DNA of 40,459 nt from Bacteriovoracaceae bacterium (lineage in GTDB: Bacteria; Bdellovibrionota; Bacteriovoracia; Bacteriovoracales; Bacteriovoracaceae), in NCBI GenBank assembly GCA_017858255.1, contig JAFMBV010000024.1, positions 1 to 40,459 of the forward strand, in the 5' to 3' direction. This document shows positions 10,819 through 16,796 of this stretch, piece after piece; position 1 is the first letter of the stretch; each line of letters opens with the position of its first letter. The notes beneath the pieces are model-generated. The model ran no database searches. It was not told where the DNA came from and saw only the letters and a program-made list of their open reading frames with translations. Position numbers and translations under genes: made by a program.

Positions 10819-11358
10819 CTATTTTTGAACTTGGCGATATAAAAGAATTGAACTCAGAACTGTAAGCACAACCCCCACCAAACTTGTATAATAAGACCTA
10901 TCTCTATAAAAATTATCCTTTGGAATAAAGATAGTATCTCCTGGCTGAAGTTTGAAATTTTCAATATCTATATTGCCACCTTCAGAAATATCGAAAGACA
11001 ATTTCTTTCTCTCACCATCTCTAGAAGTAGTAACATAGACATCATCAAAAACAGCATCTGCACTTGGACCACCGGCCAATGAAATCCCATTGATTAAATT
11101 GGTATCCAAGGGAATGAAGTGAAGCCCAGTATTTTTAATCTGACCCCAGAAATGTACGGGAATAAGCACCTTACCTTTTACCGAAGGTGAGTAGAAAATT
11201 GAGCCAGCTTTTTTACCAATATTTTCGACTTCAGAAGGTAGGGCCAATTCTCTAATATTATAACTAACAGCATCTTTTGATTTATTTTCTTTTTTCTTTT
11301 TAGCAAAAGAAGGTTGAATAAGAAGAAAAACTAAAAGAAATGTCATCATTTTTTTCAT
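10819..11358 (-). CDS. SLBB-domain exported protein with C-terminal membrane anchor, 179 aa
   Basis: The N-terminus (residues 1-19, ending PSFA) is a signal peptide, followed by a Lys-rich stretch. A single SLBB (ubiquitin-like, sugar-binding) domain covers about 60-148: GKVLIPVHFWGQIKNTG, then NGISLAGGPS, VYVTTSRDGE and LQPGDTIFIP are the usual landmarks. Residues 155-175 form a hydrophobic segment, so it is probably held in a membrane. Unlike Wza-type exporters, there is no polysaccharide export (PES) domain and no lipobox Cys. AAAGG lies 7 nt before the ATG. It is the last gene of the Wzz/Wzy block and is likely a periplasmic part of the export machinery, perhaps paired with a Wza encoded elsewhere. 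Confidence 0.75.
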   Translation of the reverse strand: MKKMMTFLLVFLLIQPSFAKKKKENKSKDAVSYNIRELALPSEVENIGKKAGSIFYSPSVKGKVLIPVHFWGQIKNTGLHFIPLDTNLINGISLAGGPSADAVFDDVYVTTSRDGERKKLSFDISEGGNIDIENFKLQPGDTIFIPKDNFYRDRSYYTSLVGVVLTVLSSILLYRQVQK

Positions 11359-11384: not shown

Positions 11385-12971
11385 CTAAACATCTACAATT
11401 TCAAAGGAATCAAACTCACCCTCATCTAAATTCTCACTCTTTTCTTGAACCCTTCTCTTATCCTTAATGGTTTTGTAAACATTAAAACCTGTTCCTGCCC
11501 AAAACCAATAATAGAAAGACTCTGGATTAAATGGCAAGGCCACCGAACCCCAATTAAAAACGGATAAAACAAATACAGTCATTGAGCAACATGCTAACAA
11601 AGAAAAGGCCGTAAGCTCTTTCCAGCGTAGTAAGGTGATAAGCCTTGAGAATAAAGATACGTTTACCGCGACAATTATAAATAGATAAATAAAAGCGCCT
11701 AAACCTAGTTCTAAGAAGAGAAAAATAATTAAGTTATCATTACTCCAAAACCAAATTTTAGGCTTATCTAAATGTCTATTACGCCTCTCCTCAAAGTCAG
11801 GTAGAAATTTTTGAGTCATCCCCACACCATAGCCAAAGGGAAGCTCTATTCTTTCATCAAATATATCCATAAAAGTATCAAAATTGGCCCTATTCGCTAA
11901 CATACCAGAATCCATTAGTCCCTCATATCTGCTTAAGGCACCATCAAAATTGATTCCCTGCTTCTCTAAGAAGTTAGAAGTTAGAGGTAATGTAAATACG
12001 AAGACAAAGACGAAGATTAGGGCCGTAGCTCCTCTTTTAAATTTAAGCCTTGAACCAATAAACTTAAGAAAAGCAAAGGAGACCACAATAAGGACCATCT
12101 TAAGGGTTGCACTCCTAACCTGAGAAACGAAAGAGGCAAAAAAGAAGGAGGAGATCGAAAGCCACTTAAATAGACTTAAAAAAGCCTGCAAAGGGGGATT
12201 CTTTTTAACTATAATTGATGGCTTGAAAAGAAGTAAAAAAGGAATCGTTAAATAAAATAGAACACTCATGCCTCCTGGCACAAAACTCAATCCCCATGGA
12301 CGGTAGACTAAACCTGTGAAAGCCGAGTACTTCGCAAATAAAGAACGGTAATTTTCTGAGATACCATAGAGAAAATTCTCATCTAACTGATTTTGGATAA
12401 TCACGATAATGGATGTTAAGAATAGAAATATGTTAAAGAGAAGAAGCATCTTCTGACCTTTAACTTCCATTAAGTTAATGGGAAAATTTTGAATAAAAAA
12501 GAATAATAAAAAAGGAAAAATAAATATCTTGGAGGTAGCTATACCTGCGATAAACCCAGCACCATTAGGGTTAAATAATTCGAGAGCAAACCAGATAAAG
12601 TGAAAAAATATACCAATAACGAGGTAATTGGGCACCACTTCCCTATTTATAAGTTTTTTACTTGAGATGCTTGAGCGAATAATTAGACCGGCCAAGAAAA
12701 TATCGAAGATCAATCTAAAAATTATATTATAGCCCCACAGTACTCTTCCCTGGCCCTCGAACAGAGTAAACAAGGCCAATGCCCAAAATATCTGGGTTTT
12801 GTCTGAGGTGATAATCAACAGGCCTAATAAAACGGTTTGCCCTAAGTATAAATACTTCACCGCAGGCAAGCCCAGAATATTAAATAGAATGTTTGCGAAG
12901 CAAATTATAATAAAAATTGAAAACAGAGAACGTGAAGTTTTCTGGTCTGCATTATTGGCGATTCCTTCCAT
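11385..12971 (-). CDS. Wzy/O-antigen ligase-like membrane polymerase, 528 aa
   Basis: A polytopic inner-membrane protein with about 11-12 hydrophobic segments and a long periplasmic loop (about residues 335-400) before the last helices. This is the usual layout of Wzy polymerases and WaaL-like ligases. Motifs RPWGLSFVPGGMSVLF before the loop and GYGVGMTQKF within it resemble O-antigen polymerase landmarks. It probably joins flipped repeat units into chains. A charged cytoplasmic tail closes the protein. It lies between Wzz and SLBB genes, supporting polymerase over ligase. It has TATTAT six bases before ATG and a terminator-like hairpin upstream, so it can probably be transcribed without Wzz. 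Confidence 0.75.
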   Translation of the reverse strand: MEGIANNADQKTSRSLFSIFIIICFANILFNILGLPAVKYLYLGQTVLLGLLIITSDKTQIFWALALFTLFEGQGRVLWGYNIIFRLIFDIFLAGLIIRSSISSKKLINREVVPNYLVIGIFFHFIWFALELFNPNGAGFIAGIATSKIFIFPFLLFFFIQNFPINLMEVKGQKMLLLFNIFLFLTSIIVIIQNQLDENFLYGISENYRSLFAKYSAFTGLVYRPWGLSFVPGGMSVLFYLTIPFLLLFKPSIIVKKNPPLQAFLSLFKWLSISSFFFASFVSQVRSATLKMVLIVVSFAFLKFIGSRLKFKRGATALIFVFVFVFTLPLTSNFLEKQGINFDGALSRYEGLMDSGMLANRANFDTFMDIFDERIELPFGYGVGMTQKFLPDFEERRNRHLDKPKIWFWSNDNLIIFLFLELGLGAFIYLFIIVAVNVSLFSRLITLLRWKELTAFSLLACCSMTVFVLSVFNWGSVALPFNPESFYYWFWAGTGFNVYKTIKDKRRVQEKSENLDEGEFDSFEIVDV

Positions 12972-13036: not shown

Positions 13037-14536
13037 TTAGTCAAAGTCAGGAGTGTTACCAATAATAGTGAGGTCTTCAAAGCTCTTTTCAAGTTCGTGT
13101 TGATCGTAAATTCTATCGTCGAGAAGAAAGAAGCTCGAAATAACCAACACAAGTAGTCCCAAACTTATAGATAAAGAAAATAGTATGATTTTTGATTTAC
13201 TTACTTTCTTATACACATTTTGTGTACTCAGCTGATTTTCAAAGACTAGGTCAGATACAACAGTAGAGTTTAAGAGAGTCAGTTGGAGTATTTTCTGCTC
13301 TAGAAGTTTAAAATAATCAAATGAGGGCTTAATATTTTCAAGTTTTTCATCCACAAGGCTAAGTTCCTTAACTTGTCCTTCCCTTTGCAAAATTAGTCTG
13401 TCAAACTCTTTCGTTGTTTTCTTGTATTGTTCCGACTTAACTTTAAAGTCAAATTCAGTGAAGTTAGACTCATTTTCTTTCTTTAAGATAAAACTAGCAT
13501 CACTCGAAACTTTACGCCCAGACATACCCATTGATATAAGTTTCTTCTTAGATGACATGAGGTCGGCCTGAAGCTGTTTTACGATTACATTATCTTGAGT
13601 ACTGATAGAATTACTCACAGATTGAACTGCTCCAATATCTTCTTCAAGCTTCTTAATTTTCTCTTCCAATCTCTTTCGCTTTTGATATACGAGCAATTTA
13701 TCGGTCTTGATCTCGCCCTTATAGGCTTTCTTAGTTTCCGTAACTTGAGTCTCAGCTAAGGCCAGTTCTAGTTTTAACTTTTGTCTAAAAAGATTATTTC
13801 TTTCTATCTTATTAGTCATAGACGCGATACTTGCAGTAAGTGCTCGGGCCTGATCTTTTAATGACTTAATATCGACGATACTAAGCTCTTTTCTCTTCGT
13901 ATCAGCTATTTCACTTGATATTTTAATTTGCTCATCAATTTTATGACGAATTGCCTCAACCCTACTTTTAACAATTCTTTTACTAACTTCATTCAATAGA
14001 AACTTAGTTGTATCAGGATCTAGTGAACTCACTTGAACAAAATATTTATTAACGACGAGACGGTCTGGCACTATGCGAATAAAGGAAAACAATATTCCCC
14101 GAAGTTTGGACTCAATACAAAGCTCTAAACCACTACAACCTTTCATTATACTATCAAAATTAATTGTCGATTTTGAATTAATTGGTGATAGGTTAAGTGT
14201 TCTAAACTCTGGAAGTTTAATTAACTCTGAAGTAAATTCTTGTTGAAAGTCTAATGAACTAATAAGGCCTACAACCTCTCCTTCAGACAAAGAACTTGTC
14301 TGTTCACCTAAAACAGAAGCAATTGCACTAGTTGGGCTATCAGACTCTGTGGCAATATTTTTGAAAAACTTTTTACGTAAATAGATATCACTTTGATTTT
14401 GATAAAAATAACTTGCGTACCCAAACACAATGACGGGCAGAAAAATGGAGAACCATTTATAACGAATCATCAACTTCCAAAAGAATGGGAAGTTTATGAT
14501 GGTCGTTTCATGTAGGATGATATTTAGTTTTTTCAT
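13037..14536 (-). CDS. Wzz-type chain-length/co-polymerase protein, 499 aa
   Basis: This has the layout of a polysaccharide co-polymerase: a cytoplasmic N-terminus, a membrane segment at about residues 29-47 (WFSIFLPVIVFGYASYFY), a long periplasmic region with extended coiled coil (about 195-430), and a second membrane segment at about 455-478. It lacks the cytoplasmic tyrosine-kinase domain of Wzc. The two genes just upstream encode BY-kinase-like partners, so it resembles Gram-positive-style split systems (CapA/CapB). It probably controls chain length of the Wzy product. Its start overlaps the preceding gene by 1 nt. Most of the N-terminal periplasmic part has no motif I can name. Confidence 0.75.
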   Translation of the reverse strand: MKKLNIILHETTIINFPFFWKLMIRYKWFSIFLPVIVFGYASYFYQNQSDIYLRKKFFKNIATESDSPTSAIASVLGEQTSSLSEGEVVGLISSLDFQQEFTSELIKLPEFRTLNLSPINSKSTINFDSIMKGCSGLELCIESKLRGILFSFIRIVPDRLVVNKYFVQVSSLDPDTTKFLLNEVSKRIVKSRVEAIRHKIDEQIKISSEIADTKRKELSIVDIKSLKDQARALTASIASMTNKIERNNLFRQKLKLELALAETQVTETKKAYKGEIKTDKLLVYQKRKRLEEKIKKLEEDIGAVQSVSNSISTQDNVIVKQLQADLMSSKKKLISMGMSGRKVSSDASFILKKENESNFTEFDFKVKSEQYKKTTKEFDRLILQREGQVKELSLVDEKLENIKPSFDYFKLLEQKILQLTLLNSTVVSDLVFENQLSTQNVYKKVSKSKIILFSLSISLGLLVLVISSFFLLDDRIYDQHELEKSFEDLTIIGNTPDFD

Positions 14537-15384
14537 TATTTACTAAATAGCCTCTTCCACCACGGTCGGTTATCCTTAGCATTATTGCGATTGGAGTCAT
14601 TAGAATCATCTTCATTCTTTGACGAAGAAGACTTCTCTTCAAGTAAAAGGCCTTTTAAGTTAATTCCATAACCTAAGAAGAACTTCTTTATATCTTCAAT
14701 ATCACTTTTCTTAGTTAAACTCTGAGCGACAATAATACTTATCGATTCAAATTTCATGATGACAGGAAAGTATCCTTCTGAATCAATTTGTATTTTATGA
14801 AGCTCTGGCACATCCCAAAAGACAATGTCATAAAGGTCGACAATTTGGTCAAAAACCTCGTCATACTCACCTAATTCGTTATCTACGGCCAATGATAGGA
14901 TTTCATCTAAGTTGATAAATTCAAAGTGATTATAAAAAGACTTTATATTTATAACTTTATCTTTACCCCAATAGTCATAAGGAATATTTTTACTGATAGA
15001 GACAATATCTTTGAAAGCGCCTTGCTTTAAATTATCGCTAATAATACCTATTTTTAAGTCTTCTTTATGATCAAAAAAGCTTGCAAGGCCTAAGATTGTC
15101 TTTTGTTGACTCGTTTGATAACCCGTAGAAGTAATCGCAAATGACTTCACTCCGGCCATGTAATCGCTATAAAAGCTTCTTCCGATTTTAAATAATTCGT
15201 GGTGATTACTAACTTTATAGAAATACCTATTAGACTTCTTCTTTTTTGGTTTTTCTCTTTTATTCTCATTTGCATCAAGGATTTTAAGGTCAGGTCTTGA
15301 GTTCTTAGAACCTTCCTCGAAAGTATCCTGAGTTACTTTCTCTTTCTCTACTTGATTTTTTAGTTTCAATTTAAGACCGCTCAT
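14536..15384 (-). CDS. BY-kinase/MinD-like protein with degenerate Walker A, 282 aa
   Basis: Residues 60-255 align with the cytoplasmic kinase domain of Wzc/CpsD. HELFKIGRSFYSDYMAGVKSF corresponds to the start of that domain. The Walker A position reads T87-G88-YQTSQQ-K95-T96, keeping only the outer Gly and the Lys-Thr. The Walker A' position IISDNLK keeps D117. Walker B reads VFWDVPE with D191 and P193. The C-terminal part ...GYGINLKGLLLE matches the family's last strand. There is no C-terminal tyrosine cluster; the tail is Ser/Asn/Asp-rich and ends WWKRLF. It overlaps the neighbours by 4 nt and 1 nt. It is likely a Wzz partner; kinase activity is doubtful, though it may still bind nucleotide. 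Confidence 0.65.
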   Translation of the reverse strand: MSGLKLKLKNQVEKEKVTQDTFEEGSKNSRPDLKILDANENKREKPKKKKSNRYFYKVSNHHELFKIGRSFYSDYMAGVKSFAITSTGYQTSQQKTILGLASFFDHKEDLKIGIISDNLKQGAFKDIVSISKNIPYDYWGKDKVINIKSFYNHFEFINLDEILSLAVDNELGEYDEVFDQIVDLYDIVFWDVPELHKIQIDSEGYFPVIMKFESISIIVAQSLTKKSDIEDIKKFFLGYGINLKGLLLEEKSSSSKNEDDSNDSNRNNAKDNRPWWKRLFSK

Positions 15385-16796
15385 TTCTTATCCTCCCGGT
15401 CTTTGCTTGAATTACTAAATAACAACCCCTTTATTGGTATTTGATAACGCTTAAAATATGAAATCATTTCATTAATTTCTGATATCTTTGAAACATTCTT
15501 TCCTACAATAAAGGAAACATTGTCCAAAGACCTAATGATTGGAAAATATACTTCTTTATTAGAATCTAAAATCTCTAATTCTGGCAGATCCCACAATATC
15601 AAATCAAAAGAATCAATTAAGAAGTCTAAGAAATCCTCAAAATTATAGGCGGTAATCTTTCTTTCGATCTTTTTTAATTCGCTATACTCGATAACTTCAA
15701 ACCCATCACCCGTATAAAAATCATAATGAAGGTCTTCATCAAATACTCTGGCCTCTTTCTTTCGTGCTTGAGTCGCAATCTTACTGTAGAACGAATCCAC
15801 TAAAGAAGGTGTAATAACACAAATATTGACATCTTCGTGGTAATTGAAAAATGACAAGATCCCCAGAACAGATTTTTCTCTCTCTTCTTTAAGTCCTATA
15901 GAGGAAAAGGAGAATGATTTAAGACCTGAGCGAAAATCCTTTAAGAATGAACTTCCTACTTTAAAAAGTTCGACATGGTCCTTTGCTCTATAATAGTAGC
16001 CATGGCCACTACGGTTCTTTTTCCTAGAAAAAGTATGTTTCTCATAGTTTACTTTTCTTTCTTCATTTTGATCATTGTTTTTGAGTTTTAAACTCATTTT
16101 GAGTGGTTTAGGTGTACTCTTCGGTTCCTTCGCTGAAGGTTCGGGAGTCTTTTCTTCAACACTTTCTGTTTTACTTTTTGGCCATTTAAAGTTTAAAACC
16201 TTTTTTTCCACTTCGGCCGTTTCGCTTTTTGCTTCTGTAACTTCTATTTGTTCTTTAACAGGAACACTTTTACCGTCAGAGAGTTTCCCTAGAAAATCCT
16301 GATTAATAAGATTTTCAAGCTCATCTAGATTAAAGTATTTTATGTCTTCTTTTTGCTCGAATCCAATCTGTCCATCAATTTCATTCTCATCTAATTTATC
16401 TATCGTGTCTTCTACAAGAGAGACAAACTCACTAGCATGATGGCGAGGTTCAAAAAGTAGGCTTATTCGAGTAGCTTCATCAATGCTTATTTTTTCAACA
16501 ACAACTTGCTTAATACCCTTATTCTCATTGATGAACTTCTTAAGATCTTTTGGATTAACAATTTCAATCCCAGAGTCACGAAAAATTTTAACTTGGGTAA
16601 TGGCCTCAGTAGAGTCCTCTGTATTTGGCTTTGGAAGACTTACATTTTTTTCAAAAAACTCAGACTTAAGTTTAAATTCTTTTTCAAGAGAGTCACGCGT
16701 ACTAGTTTCTTTTCCATCCACAACTCTAAGGTTGCTAGATTTCTCTTGCGTTACTTCTCCCTCCAAAATGTCTATTTTCTTAAGTGCTTTTGCCAT
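15381..16796 (-). CDS. BY-kinase-like protein with long N-terminal extension and degenerate Walker A, 471 aa
   Basis: Residues 234-471 are a paralogue of the 282-aa protein encoded directly downstream. Both open with a MSLKLKN-like stretch, share HVELFKVGSSFLKDFRSGLKSF, have a broken Walker A (here I300-G301-LKEERE-K308-S309), and a Walker B LWDLPE (D403, P405). The Walker A' Asp is absent (ITPSL). Residues 1-233 are a charged, largely disordered extension rich in Glu and Lys with no known domain. There is no tyrosine cluster at the C-terminus. The start has AAAGGA 5 nt upstream. It is the first gene of the Wzz/Wzy block. The role is probably regulation or scaffolding of polymerisation rather than catalysis. 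Confidence 0.65.
   Translation of the reverse strand: MAKALKKIDILEGEVTQEKSSNLRVVDGKETSTRDSLEKEFKLKSEFFEKNVSLPKPNTEDSTEAITQVKIFRDSGIEIVNPKDLKKFINENKGIKQVVVEKISIDEATRISLLFEPRHHASEFVSLVEDTIDKLDENEIDGQIGFEQKEDIKYFNLDELENLINQDFLGKLSDGKSVPVKEQIEVTEAKSETAEVEKKVLNFKWPKSKTESVEEKTPEPSAKEPKSTPKPLKMSLKLKNNDQNEERKVNYEKHTFSRKKNRSGHGYYYRAKDHVELFKVGSSFLKDFRSGLKSFSFSSIGLKEEREKSVLGILSFFNYHEDVNICVITPSLVDSFYSKIATQARKKEARVFDEDLHYDFYTGDGFEVIEYSELKKIERKITAYNFEDFLDFLIDSFDLILWDLPELEILDSNKEVYFPIIRSLDNVSFIVGKNVSKISEINEMISYFKRYQIPIKGLLFSNSSKDREDKK

Follow-up and report, generated by a model that had tools for sequence, protein, structure and literature searches.

The locus analysed here speaks to the question of how polysaccharide co-polymerases can cycle in the absence of a kinase. 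The window, i.e. the whole stretch of 40,459 nucleotides under analysis and part of a 4.08-Mb draft genome of 207 contigs, carries on the minus strand, on which all window features given below are located, the genes B (15381-16796; 471 amino acids), A (14536-15384; 282 amino acids) and wzz (13037-14536; 499 amino acids), followed by a Wzy-like gene and a short SLBB gene. The set B-A-wzz lies downstream of pheS-pheT, the overlap being 4 bases between B and A and 1 base between A and wzz. The original prediction had placed A and B as tandem genes adjacent to wzz, which agrees with the ORF list, and had proposed a nucleotide- or phospho-independent regulator acting with Wzz, which is the best reading and is well supported. 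We consider it probable that A and B constitute a pseudokinase base of Wzz controlling it without autophosphorylation, for which we infer binding, ring formation and an effect on chain length. Directly observed are the modelled fold, the loss of the P-loop and the Tyr tail, the conservation, the gene order, the co-occurrence with Wzz and a motif in the Wzz tail.

The structure models identify A and B as paralogues with the fold of BY-kinases (Wzc/CpsD), as had been supposed. We built the models from alignments of the window proteins with proteins of related loci, resulting in a mean pLDDT of 81.7 for A (blocks of at least 89 over residues 61-250) and of 71.1 for B (blocks of at least 84 over residues 271-460). 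The top 19 VIA-align entries are all BY-kinase proteins, including Wzc, Etk, CapAB, BceF and VpsO, for A (Z 12.9-14.2) as well as for B (Z 12.8-14.1), the best matches of the kinase-fold cores (A residues 53-262, Z 14.2; B residues 266-471, Z 14.1) both being to Wzc, at a large rmsd (3-5 Å) and about 14% identity. Foldseek gave the same outcome with best E-values of 2.2e-8 (A) and 3.5e-7 (B). Both models show the P-loop ATPase fold of BY-kinases; a model lacking it, named beforehand as an outcome speaking against the prediction, was obtained for neither protein. As single sequences the window proteins A and B show no convincing Pfam or NCBIfam family match, and BY-kinase families surface only when relatives are scanned member by member, TIGR01007 being matched by 6/40 (best 9.2e-6) and EpsG by 3/40 relatives in the NCBIfam scan and AAA_31 by 1/40, at 0.0029, in the Pfam scan. 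The A/B family profile matches CapA1B1 at 2.7e-4, and profile-profile comparison of A and B with three BY-kinases gave modest probabilities of 84% and 91%. Get3 and MinD structures rank next after the BY-kinases (Z at most 11.5 for A and 11.7 for B), and ParA-class pseudo-ATPases with a siting role exist in CpaE/TadZ. Both points would fit A and B being MinD/ParA- or CpaE-like pseudo-ATPases siting the export machine instead of being parts of the co-polymerase, an explanation we judge improbable considering that the best structural matches are the BY-kinase set, that the gene order joins them to a PCP-2 devoid of a kinase domain and that both proteins have, in the helix preceding strand 1, the E..K/R pair which is a BY-kinase motif (in A, E63 in 26/33 and K/R66 in 25/33).

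The catalytic motifs are largely lost. The site of the former Walker A motif comprises residues 86-101 in A (STGYQTSQQKTILGLA; 15082-15129) and 299-314 in B (15855-15902), where the window letters GYQTSQQKT and GLKEEREKS confirm that the inner glycines are gone in both proteins. Both models have the helix beginning 4 residues past the end of strand 1, i.e. at residue 90 following strand 81-86 in A and at residue 303 directly after strand 294-299 in B, leaving no room for a P-loop. Walker A (G..GK[ST]) is absent from the aligned site in all 66 relatives (33 A, 33 B), taken from 34 of the 35 positive genomes as ORFs of at least 100 amino acids, so that short fragments of G003, G122 and G106 were left out; orthologues with an intact motif, the second outcome named as speaking against the prediction, did not occur among them. 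GK[ST] strings are present in 7 of these 66 proteins, none within the aligned Walker A columns. Gln93 of A is invariant (33/33) and followed by Q94 in 31/33, forming the motif SxxYxxSQQ. The claim of a kept Lys-Ser/Thr holds for the window's own strain but not as a conserved Walker remnant in A, since the Lys two places after Gln93 is K in 15, R in 13, N in 3 and T in 2 of 33 proteins; the corresponding Lys of B is K in 19 and R in 5 of 33. The spacing between the last Ser of strand 1 and the 'LA' of helix 1 is 16 residues in A, as in the BY-kinase domains of G028, G274 and G261, and laying A on these domains without gaps places Gln93 on the Walker Lys, while profile alignment of B with the same domains introduces a 2-residue insertion and places K308-S309 on the Lys-Thr. 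The register at this site is not certain; the P-loop is absent under either register.

A Walker-B-like [FL]WDxP is common to A and B, appearing in the window as FWDVPE and LWDLPE as originally described, with its Asp present as D191 in 32/33 A and as D403 in 26/33 B proteins, the remaining seven B relatives having E (2), T (2), A (2) or N (1). The Walker A' motif has the form DxDxR, and neither protein of the window shows it (IISDNLK in A, VITPSLV in B). Walker A' has been described for BY-kinases in the main text of PMC12004946. A Tyr-rich C-terminal tail was found neither in A (0-2 Tyr among the final 30 residues) nor in B (0-5; 33 proteins each), in line with the claimed lack of a Tyr cluster, both Tyr residues near the C-terminus of window B being located inside the fold (YFKRYQ). 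The invariance of Gln93 and the near-invariance of D191 could suggest A and B being odd active kinases or ATPases binding nucleotide via a remodelled loop. From the alignments we regard this as highly unlikely, given the missing P-loop glycines, the loop being a helix in the model and the Asp missing in part of the B proteins. The Walker-B-like Asp being mostly kept nevertheless counts against the pseudokinase reading, and this residue may still have some Mg- or nucleotide-related role. Also counting against it is a single low-molecular-weight Tyr-phosphatase gene on another contig of the own genome, so that phosphotyrosine turnover remains conceivable.

Comparison across genomes, mostly drafts and many of them MAGs, indicates that the loss of Walker A is family-wide and not decay of one strain. 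The A1 profile detects relatives in 35/129 genomes of the family, the named records holding relatives being Bacteriovoracaceae, Halobacteriovoraceae, Bacteriovorax and similar MAGs. The survey for the pair, proposed together with the prediction, shows at least two A1 matches in 32/35 positive genomes and a single match in G106, G117 and G118. Wzz was detected in 37/129 genomes and together with A in 33/129, a Fisher test for this association taking no account of genome relatedness. Wzz occurs without A in four genomes, the contig ending at wzz in G001 and G056, the match being weak in G159, and G126 having no A or B beside wzz, the latter counting against our preferred model; A occurs without Wzz in G122 (contig end) and G106 (short contig). 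The pN/pS values to the orthologues of the nearest relative, G002, are 0.156 for A, 0.179 for B, 0.244 for Wzz and 0.179 for PheT, with dS near or past saturation, suggesting a coding constraint on A and B resembling that on pheT. Decay in the own strain only is ruled out by the relatives in 35 genomes, the low pN/pS and the lack of Walker A throughout the 66 relatives. That A and B are decaying kinase leftovers of the whole family would account for the lost catalytic motifs, but has next to no probability considering family-wide conservation, low pN/pS and invariant substitute residues such as Gln93; the proposed altered function in place of decay is upheld. Chance origin of the A/B motifs is excluded because they are conserved across the family.

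True BY-kinases are nearly absent from this lineage, which keeps two different dead ones for each co-polymerase and is therefore a natural setting for testing which surfaces of the BY-kinase fold count apart from catalysis. TIGR01007 scores above its curated cut-off in 1/129 genomes (G028), which has neither an A nor a Wzz match, and none of its 8 matches in the own genome is above the cut-off. The 11 AAA_31 matches of the own genome were considered as hidden BY-kinases and rejected, as those inspected are other proteins, which from context we take to be ParA-, FlhG- or ArsA-like. A scan of 368 genomes of the phylum with profile A4 yielded 39 matching genomes, 37 of these in the same family (some weakly); the two matches outside, G261 and G274, are fused PCP-kinase-like proteins. 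These fused proteins (L199, 5628-7859; L200, 6113-8350) retain NEGKT and NEGKS as a Walker A-like loop and have no Tyr-rich C-terminus.

The presumed partner Wzz is a PCP-2-like co-polymerase that carries no kinase domain and terminates in a short tail on the cytoplasmic side. PF02706 was matched by 1/14 Wzz orthologues (1.2e-5), and the Wzz profile matches PslE structures weakly (3.9e-4). The tail (DDRIYDQHELEKSFEDLTIIGNTPDFD; 13040-13120), presumably docking A and/or B, is kept in its form in all 34 listed Wzz ends and resembles the segments between TM2 and the kinase domain in the fused PCPs of G274 and G261, DLEKMGIKVIGTLPF and DLEKIGIHVIGEVPF, so that Wzz, judged by sequence likeness, looks like a PCP-2 stopping at the point from which A or B would continue. 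We propose a model in which A and B form the cytoplasmic base of Wzz. The tail following the second membrane helix is similar to the opening helix and strand of a BY-kinase domain, and A and/or B would probably dock on this tail and complete the fold, by analogy to EpsV/EcpK and CapA/CapB. A and B may form, or alternate in, a ring under the Wzz oligomer, and their binding and release instead of autophosphorylation would control Wzz assembly and by this polymerisation by Wzy, bearing on the cell-surface polymers of Bacteriovorax-like bacteria. Within the presumed periplasmic part of Wzz, two Cys residues (134 and 140) are invariant in 14/14 aligned orthologues and could possibly form a disulfide.

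The original prediction had stated that no system of this kind was described, which does not stand. BY pseudokinases that pair with a PCP-2 devoid of a kinase domain were defined in 2025 for EcpK/EpsV and HfsB/HfsA, and the main text of that report puts forward a third subfamily of PCP-2, independent of phosphorylation, in which a single stand-alone pseudokinase would serve as a scaffold (PMC12004946). Like EcpK, which we compare by its description there, A and B are stand-alone proteins of BY-kinase fold that lack Walker A and the Tyr tail, their presumed partner being a PCP-2 without kinase domain in a Wzx/Wzy-type setting; unlike them, EcpK of the Myxococcus xanthus EPS system is the single pseudokinase of its PCP, is not encoded beside epsV and is reported to lack all three Walker motifs including Walker B (PMC12004946), whereas here two paralogues are encoded beside wzz, mostly keep the Walker B Asp and include an extra module on B. 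HfsB/HfsA of the Caulobacter holdfast, again compared by description, likewise combines a pseudokinase, important for HfsA stability, with a PCP-2 that has no kinase domain, but comprises a single pseudokinase and serves the holdfast pathway (PMC12004946). The same text describes a short-tailed PCP-2 with a separate kinase-fold protein for EpsV/EcpK and, citing others, for CapA/CapB (PMC12004946). The latter (Staphylococcus aureus; PCP-2b), matched by our family profile, shares this division into two proteins; CapB2, however, is an active kinase with a Y-cluster, and each CapB has its own CapA, compared to one Wzz with two partners here. PMC3795738 raises the possibility that CapB1, inactive and accompanied by an active CapB2, is a pseudokinase, which makes a pairing of another type. 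Wzc-type PCP-2a proteins (Wzc, Etk, VpsO, BceF) have a cytoplasmic domain of the same fold as A and B, but fused to the co-polymerase, active and with a Tyr-rich tail (main text of PMC12004946). A/B-Wzz looks like a two-protein version of the phosphorylation-independent pseudokinase scaffold, the differences being two old, co-kept pseudokinases per co-polymerase and the partly folded N-terminal module of B. The words Bdellovibrio, Bacteriovorax and paralog are absent from the main text of PMC12004946, and of the papers listed on Bacteriovorax-like polysaccharide genes, pseudokinases with co-polymerases or degenerate BY-kinases, judged mostly by their listing entries, none deals with two pseudokinases per co-polymerase; for PslE none is listed.

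In a tree of 68 rows A is set apart from B with one row (B_L131) misplaced and modest support (88/51, 85/72), and a topology constrained to keep A as one group passes the AU test (p-AU 0.26), making a single old duplication likely, not proven, as judged from these sequences. It is possible, though we lean against it, that A alone is an EcpK-like Wzz partner and B an accessory adaptor to another process, located outside the ring: A abuts or overlaps wzz in the window and most loci, is better conserved than B (74% and 65% compared to 57% and 57%, against G005 and G004), and occurs with Wzz and without detected B in G117 and G118 (genus g24), which have a receiver-domain protein gene upstream instead. 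Against this, G119 and G121 place a B-type gene directly before wzz and the A-type gene at another site, close to genes that by eye look glycosyltransferase-like, the pair being kept although unlinked, and multiple A1 matches per genome are the rule. In G117/G118 the gene immediately upstream of A (L115, 6931-7455; L112, 1612-2157) was classed by eye as receiver-domain-like. G110 (L119, 4589-10256) carries B-A-wzz and then a second A-wzz pair.

B further differs by its N-terminal extension, originally described as 233 disordered residues. This is correct for most of residues 109-241 (pLDDT mostly below 50), whereas residues 31-110 are modelled as strands and a helix (block pLDDT 64-91); residues 32-107 (16476-16703) form a small predicted folded module with a VVVEKIS..EATR motif common to B orthologues. 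Within the preferred model of a base formed by A and B, this extension would recruit a further partner or signal. As a tentative and rather unlikely elaboration, A and B might form an obligatory hetero-oligomeric ring (e.g. of four copies each) beneath a single Wzz. Two dead kinases differing in their surfaces would there replace the phosphorylation cycle by a partner-exchange switch driven via the N-terminal module of B, so that the co-polymerase cycle would have no nucleotide step of its own.

Two genes follow wzz. The Wzy-like polymerase candidate (11385-12971; 528 amino acids), named from the original prediction and its neighbourhood, has no Pfam match. Poly_export (PF02563), present in every one of the three OPX classes according to the part of PMC9603273 considered, has no match at E 0.01 in the own genome. 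The short secreted, OPX-like protein (10819-11358; 179 amino acids) belongs to a conserved family and comprises an SLBB-like domain only (SLBB_2 at 0.0017, below its cut-off). It has a conserved C-terminal hydrophobic segment, with a YYTSLxGV..LLYRQVK-like end in 13/13 aligned proteins.
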